32,583 nucleotides of DNA from Porticoccaceae bacterium (lineage in GTDB: Bacteria; Pseudomonadota; Gammaproteobacteria; Pseudomonadales; Porticoccaceae): contig JABJEX010000054.1 of the NCBI GenBank assembly GCA_018663035.1, positions 1-32,583 of the forward strand, written 5' to 3'. Below are positions 9,257-23,657 of the stretch, piece after piece. The notes under the pieces are model-generated. The model was not told the DNA's origin, did no database searches, and saw only the letters and a list, made by a program, of their open reading frames with translations. The stretch's first letter is position 1. The number at the start of each line of letters is the position of its first letter. A program made the translations under genes and the position numbers.

Positions 9257-10423
9257 ATGAACCTGCACGAATATCAGGGTAAGCAGCTGTTTGCTGAGTA
9301 CGGTCTGCCAGTGTCTAAAGGGATTGCTGCAGAAACCGCGCAAGATGCCGTGGCGGCTGCTGATACTATCGGCGGCGACAAGTGGGTTGTAAAGGCCCAG
9401 GTCCACGCTGGTGGCCGAGGAAAAGCTGGCGGCGTAAAGCTGGTTAGCTCCAAAGCCGAAATCGAAGAGTTTGCCAACAACTGGTTAGGTAAGAACCTGG
9501 TGACCTACCAGACAGATGCCAATGGCCAGCCGGTTAGCCGTATTCTGGTTGAGACCTGCACCGATATTGACCAAGAGCTGTATTTGGGCGCTGTGGTCGA
9601 TCGCGCGACTCGTCGTATTATCTTTATGGCCTCCACCGAAGGCGGTGTTGAGATCGAGAAGGTTGCAGAAGAGACTCCCGAAAAAATTCTAAAAGCCATT
9701 ATCGACCCTCTGACTGGCGCACAGCCTTACCAGGGCCGTGATCTGGCCTTTAAACTGGGCCTTAAAGGGGTTCAGATTAAGCAGTTTGTGCAGATCTTTA
9801 TGGGTCTGGCCAAGATGTTTAAAGAGAAAGACTTGGAACTGTTGGAGATTAACCCACTGGTTATCACCGACGAAGGCAATCTGCACTGCCTGGATGCCAA
9901 GGTAATTATCGATGGGAACGCGCTGTACCGTCAGCCCGCTATCAAAGCTATGCACGATCCCTCCCAGGAAGATGCTCGCGAAGCTCATGCGGCCTCATTT
10001 GAACTGAACTATGTGGCCCTCGATGGCAATATTGGTTGTATGGTCAACGGCGCTGGCCTGGCTATGGGTACTATGGATATTGTGCACCTGCACGGAGGTT
10101 CTCCCGCTAACTTCCTCGATGTAGGCGGTGGTGCAACCAAAGAGCGTGTTGTTGAAGCCTTTAAAATTATTCTCTCTGACACCAATGTTAAAGCGGTACT
10201 TATCAATATCTTTGGCGGTATTGTGCGCTGTGACCTGATCGCCGATGGTGTGATTGGTGCAGTTGAGGAAGTGGGCGTGAAGATTCCAGTGGTTGTTCGC
10301 CTTGAGGGTAACAATGCTGAACTGGGTACTAAAAAGCTGGCCGAATCTGGTCTGGCTATTATTGCAGCAACCAGCTTGACGGATGCCGCGCAACAAGCTG
10401 TTAAAGCCGCAGGAGGTAACTAA
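9257..10423 (+). CDS. sucC: Succinyl-CoA synthetase beta subunit (ADP-forming)
   Basis: Beta subunit of the enzyme that converts succinyl-CoA to succinate with substrate-level synthesis of ATP or GTP. The 388-aa length is standard. It opens with the family start [16 protein letters not shown] and has the ATP-grasp glycine-rich segment [22 protein letters not shown] and the C-terminal flavodoxin-like half with [19 protein letters not shown] and [10 protein letters not shown] carry the phosphate and CoA interface. GGGAAGAG provides the ribosome binding site. The gene ends in an AGGAGG that serves sucD, one base away, so the two subunits are made together. Confidence 0.98.
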
Positions 10424-10424
10424 T

Positions 10425-11297
10425 ATGTCTATCTTAATCAATGCTGACACTAAGGTTATCTGTCAGGGCTTTACTGGCGGGCAGGGTACTTTTCACTCTG
10501 AGCAGGCGCTGGCTTATGGCACTAAGATGGTTGGTGGTGTAACCCCAGGTAAGGGCGGCACTGAGCATTTGGGTCTGCCGGTATTTAATACTGTTGCAGA
10601 GGCTGTGGAAGCCACAGGCGCAGAAGCCTCGGTTATCTATGTTCCTGCACCATTTTGTAAAGATTCTATTCTTGAAGCTGCTAACGCTGGCTTAAAGCTG
10701 GTTGTCTGTATTACTGAAGGCATTCCTACACAGGATATGCTGGATTGTAAGGTTGTTTGCGACACCTTGGGTGTCCGTCTGATTGGACCCAACTGCCCAG
10801 GCGTTATCACCCCAGGCGAATGTAAGATCGGCATTATGCCAGGTCATATTCACCTGCCCGGTAAGGTCGGCATCGTTTCCCGTTCAGGTACTCTGACTTA
10901 CGAAGCGGTTAAGCAGACTACTGACTATGGTTTTGGCCAGTCTACTTGCGTAGGTATTGGTGGCGACCCGATTCCTGGTTCTAGCTTTATCGATATTCTT
11001 GAGCTGTTTGAGAAAGACCCAGCTACCGAGGCCATTGTTATGATCGGTGAGATTGGGGGTACGGCGGAAGAAGAAGCAGCGGCTTATATTAAAGCCAATG
11101 TCACCAAGCCTGTTGTGTCTTATATTGCTGGTGTTACTGCACCTGCTGGTAAGCGTATGGGCCATGCTGGTGCGATTGTTTCTGGCGGTAAAGGTACTGC
11201 AGATGAGAAGTTTGCGGCGCTGGAAGATGCTGGTGTTAAGACGGTTCGTAGCCTGGCTGATATTGGGGCTGGCTTGAAAGAAATTACTGGTTGGTAA
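10425..11297 (+). CDS. sucD: Succinyl-CoA synthetase alpha subunit
   Basis: Alpha subunit carrying the phosphohistidine intermediate and the CoA-binding Rossmann fold. The 290-aa protein starts [18 protein letters not shown] as in the family. CoA-site residues lie in [10 protein letters not shown], and [20 protein letters not shown] is the central conserved stretch. The active-site histidine is His247 in [12 protein letters not shown]. The start is the ATG at 10425, directly behind a strong AGGAGG; a longer frame upstream is inside sucC. It is the last gene of the operon and is followed by a good terminator. Confidence 0.98.
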
Positions 11298-11318
11298 GTT
11301 CTTTAAGGCAATTTAAAG

Positions 11319-11343
11319 AAGCGGCTTTCGGGTCGCTTTTTTT
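11319..11343 (+). terminator. Rho-independent terminator after sucD
   Basis: AAGCGGC (11319-11325) pairs with GTCGCTT (11332-11338) around TTTCGG, and a T-run reaching 11343 follows. The hairpin begins 22 bp after the sucD stop. It has both the stem and the U-tract that the intercistronic hairpins of this operon lack, so it is the likely operon end. Confidence 0.85.
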
Positions 11344-11432
11344 ATGTCTTGGGTTTTGTGCGGCGGTTGTTGTAGCCATGCTTTTATCTTAAGGGTGGGG
11401 GAGTGGTATCTCTTTAGTTGGTGCCGAGCCCC

Positions 11433-11591
11433 AATAGTCCCTGCCAGTGCCCTTGCGATCGGTCCCATGGGTACAGGAATTTTCAGCGTTCAGACAACTC
11501 GCTTCGCTCAGACAAGTCTTCTCTCAATCTGAAAATACCTGCACCCATAAACGGGCCCTGATTGATCGCAAGGGCACTGGCAGGGACTATT
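11433..11591. repeat. 159-bp non-coding inverted-repeat element
   Basis: The outer arms 11433-11460 and 11564-11591 are perfect 28-nt reverse complements. Inside them a second pair, 11467-11486 and 11529-11548, matches at 18 of 20 positions. The pairs are separated by unequal bulges (6 nt on the left, 15 nt on the right, the latter containing GGGCCC). A 42-nt apical part has two copies of CAGACAA (11491-11497, 11509-11515) flanking CTCGCTTCGCT. It fills most of the 349-bp gap between the sucD terminator and the efflux permease. It encodes no recognisable protein and no flanking target-site duplication was seen. It may be a MITE or REP/BIME-type repeat, or a large bidirectional terminator. Confidence 0.8.
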
Positions 11592-11692
11592 TGAATTATC
11601 TACTCTTGTTAATTTTTTTTGTTGGAAGTTTAAAGAGGAGCTTGCTTGGAATCGGGCCGGGTCGTTATGGTCGAGCATTCTGGGGAGATGTT

Positions 11693-12751
11693 TTAATTTC
11701 TAATACCTGTGTATTTATTTGCCAAGCCATAAACCATAAGTCCCGCCAGCAAAATACTAGCCCCATAGGTCAACGGTGTATTTACCATCTCGTGGGCCTG
11801 CTGCGCCTGCGCTAAAAAGTCCATGTCCCAGAGTGCGGCCAGATAGTTGGTTAGATAGCCAAAGGCAAAACCCACTACCACAACACTGAGCAGATAGATT
11901 GCTAGCGTGCGGTTGCCCAGTTCGGTTTTTACCAGGCCCATAGTCGCTATATTGGTGGCGGGGCCCACCAGCATAAATACCAGCGTCGCGCCCGGTGATA
12001 CGCCGGAAAACAATAAGCCCGCTGCAATGGGTGTGGAGGCGGTGGCGCAGATATACATGGGTACACCCACCAGCGCCATGACCACAAAGGCTAGCAAGCC
12101 ATCGCCCCATTGCAGTAGGAATTCATTGGGTACATAGGTTTTTATTATTGCGGCAAAGCCGAGTCCAATCACAAGCCATAGGGCGATATCTCTCACCAGA
12201 TCTATGTAGGTAAAGCGCAGGCCTGCTAGCAGCTTATCCGCTGCTGTGGATTGCTTTACAGCTGGTTGTTCAGTGCTGCAGCAGGGCTCTGGCTCTGGGG
12301 TGTTGCTGGCGCAGCAAGTGCCCGCAGGTTGGGCACTGGCACTGGCCGGAATACTATTCTCTTTGCCGACTAATATACCGGCAGTGATAGCGCTGGTGAT
12401 GGCAGCAATAGGCCGAATAATCGCCATAAATGGCCCTAACAACGCGTAGGAAATAGAAATGCTATCCACACCTGTCTCTGGTGTTGATATCAAAAAGGAG
12501 GTGGTGGCGGCCTTGGATGCGCCACTGCGACGCAGCCCGAGCGCAGCGGGGATTACGCCACAGGAGCAAAGGGGTAGGGGGGCACCAAACAGAGCGGCTT
12601 TAACGGTGGCGCCAGGGCCTGAATCACCTAGATGTTTTGCCAGCAATTGGCTAGGCACCAGCACTTTTATTACTGCAGCTACGGTCAGCCCAAGCATCAG
12701 CCAGGGAGCCGACTCCATAAAAAGGGCAACAAAGTTTTCCAGTAGCAGCAT
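11693..12751 (-). CDS. SO_0444-type Cu/Zn efflux permease
   Basis: Integral membrane permease of the DUF318/ArsP-like family, closest by eye to the SO_0444 Cu/Zn efflux group. The 352-aa protein has two homologous blocks of about four to five helices. The first holds GAPLPLCSCGVIPAA (Cys62, Cys64), the likely metal-binding turn, and the second the parallel GVPMYICATASTPIA. They are joined by a hydrophilic loop with two cysteine pairs, Cys146-147 and Cys157-158, that looks like a soft-metal site. GAGGA precedes the ATG by about 9 nt. No MerR or ArsR regulator gene is adjacent. Substrate is inferred from the family; copper, zinc or arsenicals are all possible. Confidence 0.8.
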   Translation of the reverse strand: MLLLENFVALFMESAPWLMLGLTVAAVIKVLVPSQLLAKHLGDSGPGATVKAALFGAPLPLCSCGVIPAALGLRRSGASKAATTSFLISTPETGVDSISISYALLGPFMAIIRPIAAITSAITAGILVGKENSIPASASAQPAGTCCASNTPEPEPCCSTEQPAVKQSTAADKLLAGLRFTYIDLVRDIALWLVIGLGFAAIIKTYVPNEFLLQWGDGLLAFVVMALVGVPMYICATASTPIAAGLLFSGVSPGATLVFMLVGPATNIATMGLVKTELGNRTLAIYLLSVVVVGFAFGYLTNYLAALWDMDFLAQAQQAHEMVNTPLTYGASILLAGLMVYGLANKYTGIRN

Positions 12752-16305: not shown

Positions 16306-19300
16306 TTACCTAAAGTTCCGCGATTTAATTGTTACGCCGTCGCTACCCCGGGTGCGAGACAGCAGTTCAGAGCAGTCAGTTAACTCCTGGGCAATTACAT
16401 GCACCACGGCGCCATCGGTTTCTACAACGCCTTTGACCATAAGTAGCTGAGCTTTTAATAATGCCTGACGGCAGCTTTTTTGGACACTTTGCCAGACCAC
16501 TACATTACTGTTGCCGGTTTCATCTTCCAGGGTTAGAAATACCACTCCAGAGGCAGTGCCGGGTCGCTGTTTGCCAGTCACTAGTCCGGCAATACGCACA
16601 AAACGGCGATGGCCTAGTTCGGCGAGTTCACTGTGTCGCTTGCAGCGTTGAAAAATTGGAAACTGCTCTCTTAGAAGGCTCATAGGGTGCCGACCTAGGG
16701 ACAATCCGGTATGGCTGTAGTCGGCATAGAGTTCTTCGGTTTCGCTGGGGGCTCTAAGTTGCGGCTGTTGCTGATCGGCAGGTAATAGCTGTTCGCTAGG
16801 CTCTGTAGCTAGGGCCTGCCAGTGGGCTTGGCGACGATTGCTGCTCACAGGGGCAAGGGCGCCGGCACTACTGAGCAGGCTGAGATCGGCCTGAGATAGC
16901 TTGGCTTTGCGGGCTAGCTGGGGGATGCTCATTAACTGCCGATCGGAAGCCACGATTCTCTGTGCCGCCGCGCGGGAAAAGCCTTTAATTAGACGAAAAC
17001 CCAGACGTAGAGCTGGGTTTTTAGGGTCTCCCTCAAGGCTGTGATCCCATTGGCTGTTGACCACATCTATAGGCCTTACTTCTATACCCTGACGCTGTAC
17101 ATCCTGCACTAACTGCGAGGGGCTGTAGAAGCCCATGGGTTGGCTGTTCATGATGGCGCAACAAAACGCAGCTGGGTAATGGCATTTTAACCAGGCAGAG
17201 ACATAGGCGAGCAGTGCAAAGCTTGCGGAATGAGACTCGGGAAAACCATAGACTCCAAAGCCCTGAATCTGGCGGAATAGCCGCTCGGCAAAATCTAATG
17301 TGTAGCCACGAGCCAGCATGCCGTCGGTCAATTTTTGCTGAAAACCCAGTAGCTTATTATTGCGTTCACCACCTTTACCCCAGCTGGCCATGGCGCGGCG
17401 TAGCTGATCGGCTTCGCCACCGCTAAAGCCCGCAGCTACCATGGCCAGTCTAATAACCTGTTCCTGAAACACTGGAATACCCAATGTGCGCTCAAGTACC
17501 TCTTTAATGTCTGGATGAGGATAGCTAACCTGCTCTAAACCCTGACGGCGCTTTAGATAGGGGTGTACCATGCCCCCCTGTATGGGGCCGGGGCGCACTA
17601 TGGCAATTTCAATAACCAGATCGTAAAAACACCGTGGTTTAAGTCTGGGCAGCATGGCCATCTGCGCCCGAGATTCAATCTGAAATACCCCGACGCTATC
17701 AGCCCGACAGAGCATGTCGTAGGTAGCACTGTCGTCTTTGGGGATATTTTGCATGCTGAGTTCGGGGCCCTGATACCTGTGAATAAGATCAAAGCAGCGA
17801 TGAATCGCTGTCAGCATGCCCAGCGCCAAAATATCAATTTTAAGTAATCCCAGAGCTTCAATATCCTCTTTGTCCCACTGAATCACTGTGCGCTCTGGCA
17901 TGCTGGCATTTTCTACCGGTACCAGAGTGCTGATGGGGCTTTTGGTGATAATAAAGCCTCCAACATGCTGAGACAGGTGCCGGGGGAAGCCTAGAATTTC
18001 CTGTAGTAGATTATAAAAATGCTCTGCCATATCACCTCTGGCGCCGGCTTTTTCAAACTGCGCCTGCAGATCTGCATTGCGGTCCCACCAGGACAGAGAC
18101 TGGCTGAGTTGTTCGATAAACAGAGAGTCTAGTCCCAGCGCCTTGCCGACATCTCGCACTGCGCTGCGCGGCCTGTAAGTAATGACAGTGGCGGCTAGAG
18201 CGGCCTGTTCACGACTGTAGCGACGGTAGATATATTGAATGACTTCCTCGCGGCGTTCATGTTCAAAGTCGACATCTATATCTGGGGGTTCATTGCGCTC
18301 GGTGGAGATAAAGCGCTCAAATAATAATGACACCTGATCCGGTGAAACCTCGGTGATAAAAAGGCAGTAGCAGACAACAGAGTTGGCAGCTGAGCCTCGG
18401 CCCTGACAGAGAATATTGCGGCTGCGAGCAAAGGCCACTAGATCCTGAACGGTTAAGAAATAACATTCGTATTGCAGCTCAGCTATGACTTTGAGCTCAT
18501 AATCAATCTGCCGACGCACCGCTGTACTAAGCCCCTTGGGCCAGCGTTTCTGTGCTCCCTGTTCGGTTAACAGGCGTAGCTGTTCTGAGGCTGTTAGGTG
18601 CGGGGGCACTACGTTGTCAGGGTACTCGTAGCGCAACTCCTCGAGGCTAAACTGGCAGCGTTTTGCGATAGCTAGAGTCTCATTGAGCAGCGCTGCTGGG
18701 TAGAGCCTCTGGATATGTTCGAGACTACGCAGACGGCGCTCTGCATTGGGGAAGCGCCGGTCGCCAAGCTCCATCACTGAACAACTGTGACGAATGGCCG
18801 TTAATGTGTCCTGGAGAGCGCGGCGCTCTTTGCTGTGCATATGTACGTCGCCACAGGCAACCATGGGCAGTTGCCAGAGAGCGGCGAGATTGCGGTAATA
18901 GTAATATCTATAGGTTTCATCACCGTCTAGTAAATGCTCTACGCCAATCCAGAGTCGCTCTCTAAACCAGTGGCTCAGTCGTTCACCGACCTCATGATCT
19001 GGTTCTAGATCGCCACTGGGCAGCCAGATTAAGAGGCTGTTTGGGAGGTTGCCGCTAAGGTCAGTCCATTGCAGGCTGTATTCGCCTTTACGACTGCGCC
19101 GGCGGGCTAGAGTAATCAGTTCGGAGAGTTCAGCATAGGATTGGCGATTGCTAACCAGAACAATTAAACGCTGACCTTCAAGTTTAAATTCTGCCCCGAT
19201 AATTAATTGTAAACCGCAGTTTTGTGCTTCTATATAAGCCTTAACTACACCGGCCAATGAACATTCGTCGGTAATTGCCAGTGCGCTGTAACCCAAGCTG

Positions 19301-19386
19301 GCAGCAGTCTGGACTAATTCCCAGGGGTGGGAAGCCCCGCGCAGAAACGTAAAGTTGCTAACGCAATGAAGTTCGGCATAGGCCAT
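16306..19386 (-). CDS. dnaE2: Error-prone DNA polymerase DnaE2 (ImuC)
   Basis: Second C-family DNA polymerase alpha subunit, used with ImuA and ImuB for SOS mutagenesis and lesion bypass. The 1026-aa length is typical of DnaE2 and shorter than replicative DnaE. An N-terminal PHP domain begins at His7 (SNFTFLRGASHP) with AITDECSLAG (37-46). The palm has PDIDVDF (368-374), with Asp371/Asp373 matching the catalytic pair of DnaE, and Asp518 in KIDILALG as the third acid. Helix-hairpin-helix and OB-fold segments follow. A perfect LexA box lies 30 bp upstream of the ATG. The gene is split from imuAB by about 2 kb. No good ribosome binding site is seen before the ATG. Confidence 0.96.
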   Translation of the reverse strand: MAYAELHCVSNFTFLRGASHPWELVQTAASLGYSALAITDECSLAGVVKAYIEAQNCGLQLIIGAEFKLEGQRLIVLVSNRQSYAELSELITLARRRSRKGEYSLQWTDLSGNLPNSLLIWLPSGDLEPDHEVGERLSHWFRERLWIGVEHLLDGDETYRYYYYRNLAALWQLPMVACGDVHMHSKERRALQDTLTAIRHSCSVMELGDRRFPNAERRLRSLEHIQRLYPAALLNETLAIAKRCQFSLEELRYEYPDNVVPPHLTASEQLRLLTEQGAQKRWPKGLSTAVRRQIDYELKVIAELQYECYFLTVQDLVAFARSRNILCQGRGSAANSVVCYCLFITEVSPDQVSLLFERFISTERNEPPDIDVDFEHERREEVIQYIYRRYSREQAALAATVITYRPRSAVRDVGKALGLDSLFIEQLSQSLSWWDRNADLQAQFEKAGARGDMAEHFYNLLQEILGFPRHLSQHVGGFIITKSPISTLVPVENASMPERTVIQWDKEDIEALGLLKIDILALGMLTAIHRCFDLIHRYQGPELSMQNIPKDDSATYDMLCRADSVGVFQIESRAQMAMLPRLKPRCFYDLVIEIAIVRPGPIQGGMVHPYLKRRQGLEQVSYPHPDIKEVLERTLGIPVFQEQVIRLAMVAAGFSGGEADQLRRAMASWGKGGERNNKLLGFQQKLTDGMLARGYTLDFAERLFRQIQGFGVYGFPESHSASFALLAYVSAWLKCHYPAAFCCAIMNSQPMGFYSPSQLVQDVQRQGIEVRPIDVVNSQWDHSLEGDPKNPALRLGFRLIKGFSRAAAQRIVASDRQLMSIPQLARKAKLSQADLSLLSSAGALAPVSSNRRQAHWQALATEPSEQLLPADQQQPQLRAPSETEELYADYSHTGLSLGRHPMSLLREQFPIFQRCKRHSELAELGHRRFVRIAGLVTGKQRPGTASGVVFLTLEDETGNSNVVVWQSVQKSCRQALLKAQLLMVKGVVETDGAVVHVIAQELTDCSELLSRTRGSDGVTIKSRNFR

Positions 19387-21441: not shown

Positions 21442-21499
21442 ACCCAGCTGACAGATCAAGCAAATAGGCCATGGACAAACCAGCGTCTGTCCATGGCCT
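21427..21499. terminator. Two hairpins at the converging acyl-CoA synthetase/imuB ends
   Basis: CAGCTGGG (21427-21434) pairs with CCCAGCTG (21443-21450) around the synthetase stop codon. AGGCCATGGACA (21466-21477) pairs perfectly over 12 bp with TGTCCATGGCCT (21488-21499) inside the last codons of imuB. The genes converge with a 14-bp gap. Neither stem has a proper U-run, so a bidirectional terminator or a transcription-collision buffer is an inference. Confidence 0.45.
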
Positions 21500-22946
21500 C
21501 TCTAAATAACCAGTAGCGTGCACCTTTGCTATCACATGCCAGATAGTAATCGCGCTGCTGCTCGTTCTGCCACCAATTGCCACAGAGCCGCTGTGGCCCA
21601 CTGATTAGTTTTAATGGCCTGTGCCAGTACAGCTGCTGGTTGCGTATCTGTACAGGTACAGGTTTGTCTAATAGCCACAGAGGCTGTGGCGTCTGTTTCC
21701 CATAACTGACATCTATCTGAGTCGCAGTGGTTGTCTGTTGGTTGGCCAGGCCCAGGGTTCCGGCCTGTTCTGGTAGATTCTCTTGTTTTAGTACTGGCTG
21801 AAATAAAGCCTCTGCACCCAGTCGGGCATTAAGGCTATCGATTAGGTCTGAAGAGGAGCGGTTATCTGTTTGTTCGCCGAATAAATCCAGATTAAACATA
21901 CCCGCAGGTGCCTCTATAAACTGGTCTGCATAGAGAATGATCTGTTCGATACTGCGCGGTAGTTCTTGGCGCTCTAGTTGTAGACGACTGAGATTGAGTA
22001 GCATCGACCAGCTGTTTTGACTGCTGGAGAGTCGGATAGACATTTGCTTGGACTCTCCTATTAGAGGCTCAAAGCGCCAGTGCATCTCTAGGCAGTGACA
22101 TTGCCGTGCAATCATGTACTGGCAGAGACGCTGGAGTAGCGTTTTCATAGGAAACAGCAGGCTCTCTTTGTTAAAAATCCCCTGGGGGTTGTGAATCAGG
22201 TCGTAAAAGCTACTGGGTGGCTGGAATCTTGTTGCTGTAAAGGGGCGTTGATTGTTGAGTTGCTGAATAGTTGCCATCAATTCAGCATCGAAACGCTCAC
22301 TTAGCGCACTGCGCGGCAGGGCCAGTAAGTCAGCCAGGCTGGTCAACCCCAGCTGCTTAAAGCTCTGCTGCTGTTTGCGGCTGGTCTCTAGTTTATAGAG
22401 TGCTGTACCTTGCAGGCTCTGCTGTATCTGTTGGCTGCTGGGCAAATGGGTTTGGAAGCTGGGTTTGCAGAGCAGGCGTGCGGCGAGCGGGTTCTCAGCT
22501 AGACCGTTAACTGCAGTAATTCCCTGCTGCTGAAGCTTGTTTTGCAGTTCGCACAACAGAGCATCATAGCCTTTAAAAAGTCGGTCGCAGCCGGAAATCT
22601 CCAGCCATAGGCCCAGTTCTTTATGGATAATAACTTCGGGGCTAAAGCTATAGGCCAGCAGTGCTAGCTGTTGCAGGCGCTCCTGTTCCTGTTCTGCGCG
22701 TCTGCTTAGGGTCAGTAACTCAGGGCACAGGGCGAGAGCGGTAGATAGGGACAGTTGTTTTCCTACACCCCAGGCTGAGGCCTGACTGTTGCAGCAGAGT
22801 ACCTGCTGAACATTTTTTTGATGGCCAATTACCGCTATAGGTTTGCTCTGCTGTTCTGGCGTCAACTGGGGTAATAGAGTCTCAAGACTCAGCAGAGGGA
22901 ACTGCAGATAGAGCCAGATTTCCTGGCGCTTGGAAGAGCTGGCCAT
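21456..22946 (-). CDS. imuB: ImuB, catalytically dead Y-family polymerase homologue
   Basis: Scaffold of the ImuABC mutasome that links DnaE2 to the beta clamp. The 496-aa protein has a Y-family polymerase fold (about 8-400) but lacks catalytic acids. The segment WLYLQFP (11-17) has no Asp where active enzymes have the first metal ligand, and LGLWLEIS (111-118) replaces the usual SxDE-A-Y-LD pattern. A C-terminal region with PQPLWLLDKPVPVQ follows, typical of ImuB. The start ATG directly abuts the imuA stop. The transcript would run from the LexA-controlled imuA promoter. Glutamine-rich and low in acidic clusters, but the length and motifs are normal for the family. Confidence 0.92.
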   Translation of the reverse strand: MASSSKRQEIWLYLQFPLLSLETLLPQLTPEQQSKPIAVIGHQKNVQQVLCCNSQASAWGVGKQLSLSTALALCPELLTLSRRAEQEQERLQQLALLAYSFSPEVIIHKELGLWLEISGCDRLFKGYDALLCELQNKLQQQGITAVNGLAENPLAARLLCKPSFQTHLPSSQQIQQSLQGTALYKLETSRKQQQSFKQLGLTSLADLLALPRSALSERFDAELMATIQQLNNQRPFTATRFQPPSSFYDLIHNPQGIFNKESLLFPMKTLLQRLCQYMIARQCHCLEMHWRFEPLIGESKQMSIRLSSSQNSWSMLLNLSRLQLERQELPRSIEQIILYADQFIEAPAGMFNLDLFGEQTDNRSSSDLIDSLNARLGAEALFQPVLKQENLPEQAGTLGLANQQTTTATQIDVSYGKQTPQPLWLLDKPVPVQIRNQQLYWHRPLKLISGPQRLCGNWWQNEQQRDYYLACDSKGARYWLFREAMDRRWFVHGLFA

Positions 22947-23657
22947 TTAATTGCCAGACCCGGATGCAGAGATGCTGCCATAGGCATGGTGCTGACCCGT
23001 AGGCAGCTGATTGAGAGCTATACGCTGAGTAGAGTTGTGGTCTAAATTCAGTTCTAGTCGGTCTCCCGGCGCTTTGCCGCGCAGTTTGCGCACAGTGAGT
23101 TGCAATTGATTTACCGACTGACTGTCGAGCTCCAGACGAAGCGCTGCTGGCGAAGGGTCTGTGAGGGTTTTGATCGAGCTAAACAAGAAAGCTGCTCTGC
23201 TGCTGTCTGCCGCCGCCAACTGCAACTTGCGTAGATCTGTATAACGAAGATGCTGCTCACCACTCCAGGCCAATAGCAGGGCACCATTGCGGATGGACTG
23301 CTCGGCCACCCAGAGCCACTCTGTGGGGTTTTTGCTGCGCACTATTAACAGCCTGTCTAGGGCGATGCCAGCTGCAGCCAGTCTTGGGGCATAGGGTTGA
23401 TAGGGCGGATCTAACCACAGGCAGAGTTGGTTGCTGCTGCTCTGTTCTTTAACAATGGGCAGCAGCAGGCTTAGTTCACCTATACCAAGTCGTCTAGGAA
23501 GTAATTCAGTCAGTGCGGCTGTCGGCCAGCCACCCTGTAATAGCAGATCCAAACTGTTGTGGCCTGTGCCTAGGGTGCGGCGCGGTAGACGCAGGTTGCG
23601 ACCGCGCCAAGTGTCCTGACGGGTCAGCAGGCTGGAGATTATTTCTGTATTCGCCAT
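22947..23657 (-). CDS. imuA: ImuA, SOS mutasome accessory protein
   Basis: RecA/SulA-like accessory protein needed with ImuB and DnaE2 for induced mutagenesis. The 236-aa protein has the family N-terminal pattern GTGHNSLDLLLQGGWPTAALTELL (about 30-53), with GIGE where the degenerate Walker A region lies, WLDPPYQPYAPRLAAAGI, and a LRKLQLAAADSSRAAFLF core segment. It is first in a two-gene unit with imuB. A perfect LexA box sits 38 bp upstream of the ATG. No strong ribosome binding site is visible. Confidence 0.88.
   Translation of the reverse strand: MANTEIISSLLTRQDTWRGRNLRLPRRTLGTGHNSLDLLLQGGWPTAALTELLPRRLGIGELSLLLPIVKEQSSSNQLCLWLDPPYQPYAPRLAAAGIALDRLLIVRSKNPTEWLWVAEQSIRNGALLLAWSGEQHLRYTDLRKLQLAAADSSRAAFLFSSIKTLTDPSPAALRLELDSQSVNQLQLTVRKLRGKAPGDRLELNLDHNSTQRIALNQLPTGQHHAYGSISASGSGN

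Follow-up and report, generated by a model that had tools for sequence, protein, structure and literature searches.

A dispersed family of intergenic palindromes with variable paired arms in SAR92 and other Pseudomonadales, probably maintained as single-stranded structures

Dispersed palindromes are common in bacterial genomes, and it is usually unclear whether they act as DNA or as RNA. REP sequences are palindromes of 20-40 nt that carry a tetranucleotide tag and go together with RAYT transposases. Integron attC sites fold on one strand only and have arms that are variable in sequence but complementary. Concerning longer elements, the passages of PMC3446304 that deal with the Bacillus cereus group (refs 40, 49 and 50 therein) describe bcr1-bcr18 as intergenic repeats with about half of the copies in transcripts, bcr1-3 being called MITE-like and bcr10 and bcr18 being predicted functional RNAs with a conserved secondary structure. 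ERIC, YPAL, NEMIS and similar palindromic MITEs are also intergenic, measure 70-300 bp and lie near genes, and the known examples are transcribed and influence their neighbours (PMC3733652).

The family reported here was found through one copy in the window, that is, the whole stretch of 32,583 nucleotides analysed, from a Porticoccaceae bacterium. Like the bcr repeats it is intergenic, and like REP/REPIN sequences with RAYT it consists of intergenic palindromes, the copies often forming divergent pairs or lying between inverted REP-like repeats. However, the bcr repeats belong to another phylum and have no known sequence relation to the present family, in which stems are unrelated among copies and loops are conserved. 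In ERIC, YPAL and NEMIS the terminal repeats are conserved, whereas here the interior is conserved and the paired arms are hypervariable. A reading as REP fails on the length of the unit, about 165-195 nt with two stems, and on the Y1/RAYT domain, which does not track with the element (see below). The tail CACCCAAC resembles the RYYYAAC motif of attC, but membership in that class was rejected because the conserved part is wrongly placed: attC sites have conserved end boxes and vary inside, while in the present family it is the ends that vary and the interior that is conserved.

In the window, the inverted repeat noticed by the first-pass annotation is real. The outer arms (11433-11460 and 11564-11591), 103 nt apart, are complementary at 28/28 positions, the inner arms (ATGGGTACAGGAATTTTCAG and CTGAAAATACCTGCACCCAT) match at 18/20, and the loop has CAGACAA twice. 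Folded as DNA the hairpin reaches -51.3 kcal/mol (z = -11.1), a value equalled by 0 of 200 shuffles; folded as RNA, the minus strand gives -103.7 kcal/mol versus -90.5 for the plus strand. The open reading frames called mechanically across the hairpin imply no annotated gene. The features of the locus are as follows:

10383..11297, plus strand: sucD, upstream of the element (listed open reading frame; the actual start may lie further inside)
11315..11342, plus strand: intrinsic terminator belonging to sucD and distinct from the element
11417..11432, minus strand: short 3' tail of the unit, GGCACCAAC (family consensus CGCACCCAACA)
11433..11591, minus strand: hairpin element, with RNA orientation from 11591 to 11433 (strand taken from G-U versus A-C counts and RNA folding)
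11433..11460, minus strand: 3' outer arm of P1, pairing with the 5' outer arm 11564..11591
11461..11469, minus strand: 3' side of helix P2 (GGGACC region), 99% of alignment cells paired
11469..11489 (approximate), minus strand: 3' strand of the inner stem P3, CTGAAAATTCCTGTACCCAT, from the inner-arm match and the alignment
11490..11519 (approximate), minus strand: apical module GAGAgaagaCTTGTCTGAGC-[hairpin]-GCGAGTTGTCTGAACG, where conservation within the family is highest
11520..11540 (approximate), minus strand: 5' strand of the inner stem P3, ATGGGTGCAGGTATTTTCAG, from the inner-arm match and the alignment
11540..11563, minus strand: 5' side of the core (AATCA bulge, P2 strand GGGCCC, GTTTA bulge), placed by eye from the alignment
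11564..11591, minus strand: 5' outer arm of P1, differing among copies and complementary to the 3' arm in each
11592..11611, minus strand: short conserved stretch flanking the unit at its 5' end, GAGTAGATAATTCA (GTACYGCGATARTYCA as the consensus of class A)
11693..12751, minus strand: permease-like gene, convergent with sucD

No candidate passed in a sigma-70 promoter scan at the element. TGCGATAAT in the 5' flank might be read as a promoter, but this was discarded, given that it holds partly in class A and not in class B and that the scan found none. Farther along the window (16306-19386 and 21456-23657), translations read by eye suggest dnaE2-like, ImuB-like and ImuA-like genes, with an acyl-CoA synthetase-like gene between.

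The host genome (2.02 Mb in 104 contigs) and its relatives were then searched for further copies. The host has two, the one in the window and one on another contig, near the RNase P RNA gene (rnpB, identified by Rfam at the orthologous site). The two have in common a core of about 111 nt with 84% identity, in which loops and bulges match, whereas there is no relation between the outer arms of one (AATAGTCCCTGCCAGTGCCCTTGC) and those of the other (GAAGTGTTCGGGTAGATCCTTGA), each pair being complementary; the third-best arm match in this genome, with 3 mismatches, appears to be coding and was considered a chance match. BLAST with the core gave matches in 21/95 genomes, all of the same genus, and in 0 of the other 45 genera. 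An exact 22-nt pattern was present in 53 stretches of named records, all from SAR92/Porticoccaceae or closely named Pseudomonadales MAGs, and the carriers include HTCC2207, MOLA455 and SAR92 H231. With a covariance model, the family was detected in 22/50 genomes of the SAR92 genus and in four further Porticoccaceae genera, one of which has about 30 copies. Model match counts may score one palindromic copy on both strands; counted by hand among the matches listed, the distinct places are at least 17 in the complete genome G022 and at least 13 in G041, where three units also form a tandem array with a 190-nt period. A second model, in the opposite orientation, matched 44/391 genomes of the order, belonging to 13 genera, the weakest of these matches being short and confined to the inner stem and apical core (two families); outside the order but in the same class, it gave weak matches in three further genomes only.

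The curated models of Rfam 15 produced only weak chance matches, none at the gathering score. No match was found in an exact scan of viral contigs, nor in plasmids and phages with a 38-nt core query, which is weak because short, and the open-access literature searched describes the family nowhere. The element is a copy of a dispersed repeat family that is apparently undescribed, as judged against Rfam 15 and the open-access literature. The first-pass annotation had proposed an undescribed MITE/REP family, with the proviso that a single copy, kept at the same site in all relatives, would speak for a local structure. Instead, there are two copies in the genome and many in relatives, at sites that are only partly common, and the proposal holds as regards a dispersed, apparently undescribed repeat; it fails for REP on length and Y1, and no consistent traits of a MITE (terminal repeats, duplication, transposase) were found in the SAR92 loci examined.

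Read as RNA on the minus strand, the consensus of the family is P1 - AATCA bulge - P2 (GGGCC/GGYCC) - GYTTA bulge - P3 - GAG.GA..CTTGTYTGAGC-[hairpin]-GCGAGTTGYGCGAACGC - P3' - P2' - P1'. Bulges and loops are the best-conserved columns; variation is greatest in the outer arms, and outer and inner stems alike have nearly no fixed sequence. The GGTCC/GGGCC segments inside the "bulges" in fact pair. The CAGACAA repeat of the window is not a feature of the family, which has GCRCAACTCGC...GCTCARACAA. The core with AATCA, P2 and GTTTA (11540..11563) is kept in SAR92 and in other Pseudomonadales families; the apical module takes in those families the form GCGAGGACTGTCTGAGC-[hairpin]-GCGAGTTCCGCAGCGC, and CAATCAGG is kept there too.

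In an alignment of 44 sequences, two-sided changes were found in 48/56 base pairs and 95.3% of the cells pair, with a covariation score of 0.715, versus 0.08-0.15 (maximum 0.148) when the partners are slid. The family thus has the covariation for a common fold that is expected of a structured RNA. Where copies occupy orthologous sites, the two arms have changed jointly in place; 24 comparisons, overlapping in sequences, gave 66 double Watson-Crick changes, 46 via G-U, 12 via A-C and 32 otherwise. From this analysis it is evident that the picture of outer arms kept identical around diverged inner parts, drawn by the first-pass annotation from the window, has to be reversed, since the arms diverge among copies with two-sided changes while loops and bulges are conserved. 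Its suggestion of a mobile or gene-converting repeat, or of selection on the outer stem, agrees with a dispersed family and with outer-stem selection, but not with arms kept identical by conversion. We also considered that the unrelated arms might have arisen at insertion, through duplication of the target flank in inverted form; this was rejected, as arm classes are partly common to copies and the arms covary at fixed sites.

The two strands are not equivalent. On the plus strand, RNAalifold showed almost no G-U pairs and many A-C mismatches. Strand-neutral counts on single elements gave minus-strand G-U:A-C ratios of 166:31 in SAR92 (77:17 and 89:14 in its two arm classes). For other Porticoccaceae the ratio is 44:4, and for other families it is 94:22. 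Because copies are related, the counts cannot be treated as fully independent, but every group shows the same direction. Because stem mismatches are far more often G-U on the minus than on the plus strand, we take the selected single strand to be the minus one (11591 to 11433), with the tolerance of G-U on one strand that is expected of a structured RNA. The selected form would be one strand, most likely RNA, an ssDNA hairpin being less likely. Here the strand can be read from sequence alone, through the tolerance of wobble on one strand, which recurs in three taxonomic groups.

Taken together, we think it probable that the element is a dispersed intergenic repeat spread by duplication or mobilisation, each copy being maintained as a folded single strand of nucleic acid, most likely an RNA, which in the window would be read from the minus strand. 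The fold would comprise P1 (24-28 bp), an AAUCA bulge, a 5-bp P2, a GYUUA bulge, P3 (about 20 bp) and, as apical module, UGUYUGAGC-[hairpin]-GCGAGUU. As the stems would serve only as scaffolds, their sequence could drift and compensating changes would repair the pairing; recognition would fall to the bulges and the apical module, presumably through a host protein or RNase that binds them, and the copies may be transcribed and may affect RNA ends. In SAR92 the copies are located downstream of genes. According to gene calls that are simple ORFs, 27/51 SAR92 copies lie between convergent genes and, where the neighbouring genes are co-directional, the RNA strand is antisense in 21 cases and sense in 1; this near-absence of sense copies fits an RNA form that would disturb the operon transcript. 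The rule of orientation is much weaker in other families, where the opposing gene is on the RNA 3' side in 27/38 and some copies lie in divergent promoter regions. A more specific version, put forward tentatively, is an undescribed multi-copy ncRNA family across Pseudomonadales families, with sequence-free stems, bulges and apical module as a protein- or enzyme-binding core, and RNA or strand-specific ssDNA driving the spread. Since the family occurs in several bacterial families, lacks a match in Rfam 15 and has hosts in culture (HTCC2207, MOLA455), transcription and protein binding are directly testable.

A selfish DNA element, MITE-like or REP/REPIN-like, could produce part of this pattern by transposing as folded ssDNA, its structure being selected only at that time and its old copies being dead. 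We regard this as rather unlikely. It would agree with a family that is dispersed, non-coding and multi-copy and that varies between species, with copies often placed between inverted copies of other palindromic repeats and with the near-identical copies of one genome, G057; a strand bias would also be possible, as an ssDNA hairpin would show a similar tolerance, of G-T. However, copies fixed at orthologous sites keep their pairing through two-sided changes. Comparison of flanks revealed sites common to species, such as leuB-asd in up to 9 genomes, sucD in at least 5, the rnpB locus in 4, and others, besides some unique copies. At a further site the element is present in G022 and absent in G041, whose gene is 93% identical, and G036 apparently retains one arm; therefore the element has been both gained and lost. 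The Y1 domain of RAYT and HUH transposases (PF01797) occurs in 5/22 genomes with the element and 3/28 without it, and is absent from the element-rich G022 and G041, while reverse transcriptase (PF00078), expected of an RNA mobilised by reverse transcription, is present in 1/50 genomes of the genus; both enzymes were consequently rejected as drivers, the first for not tracking with the element and the second for being nearly absent. Terminal inverted repeats are not conserved in all copies, as the outer arms differ and only G057 has flanking TTGGTGCCA...TGGCACCAA. The sites compared gave no clean empty site and SAR92 no consistent target duplication, and a related full-length transposon with transposase was not seen among the loci examined.

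Still less probable is a local 3'-end element of the convergent sucD/permease pair, either a bidirectional terminator or a hairpin stabilising the mRNA. The position between convergent genes, frequent in SAR92, would suit it, and so would the sucD 3' site, which carries the element in seven genomes (G000, that is the host, G016, G017, G018, G022, G039 and G041). On the other hand, many relatives lack the element there; it is absent from the other sucD loci examined, some of which are short. sucD has its own terminator just upstream (11315-11342), and the element, as already supposed at first reading, is not needed to end the operon; the window has no T-run terminator belonging to the element. 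Other copies, moreover, lie between co-directional genes in antisense orientation, and some of those in other families are found in divergent promoter regions. At the sucD 3' regions L170, L171, L180 and L195, a second repeat family occupies the site in some species without the present element; it has long perfect arms that differ among copies and a conserved loop, GACTCGCTGTGAATACRTCCCTGTAAGCTC...GAGGGTC, and it also lies on the 5' side of most of those G057 copies whose flank is long enough (L197, L207, L209 and others).

A fold without function is very improbable. In this reading, template switching at the replication fork would correct long palindromes and keep their arms complementary whatever their sequence. 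It would account for arms near perfect in every copy and for some orthologous pairs in which double changes are many and intermediates nearly lacking (double changes to intermediates 7:0 for L053/L085 and 12:1 for L082/L053), a pattern that could also come from template switching or gene conversion of DNA. However, it should leave symmetric mismatches, whereas across three taxonomic groups G-U outnumbers A-C roughly fivefold on one of the strands, it does not predict that unpaired positions are the best conserved, and two leuB-asd copies split by another repeat (L077, L078) have lost the complementarity of their arms. With arms that are hypervariable yet always paired around a conserved core, the family lends itself to telling selection on a fold apart from correction of palindromes at the DNA level.

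Other palindromic repeats often adjoin the copies, as in bacterial mosaic elements. In SAR92, palindromic repeats GTCATCCCGACAGAGCGCAGCGACGAGGGATCTC flank many copies (for example L022, L049 and L052) at a near-constant distance, often inverted on both sides, and in G328 the copies L252-L256 lie between inverted GGGGACGTAGACCGCCTCCGTCCCC repeats resembling REP sequences. At one intergenic site of two close relatives (L133 in G017 and L144 in G016) the element has opposite orientations, by inversion in place or independent insertion. For L009 versus L010 and L130 versus L139, similar flanks stop aligning at the end of the element, which may mark rearrangement breakpoints. Inverted pairs of copies were observed at L125, L126 and L127 and at several loci of other families (L258, L262, L263, L264, L269), in the latter with the RNA 5' ends facing each other; the pair at L125 flanks a gene for an MBL-fold-like protein.
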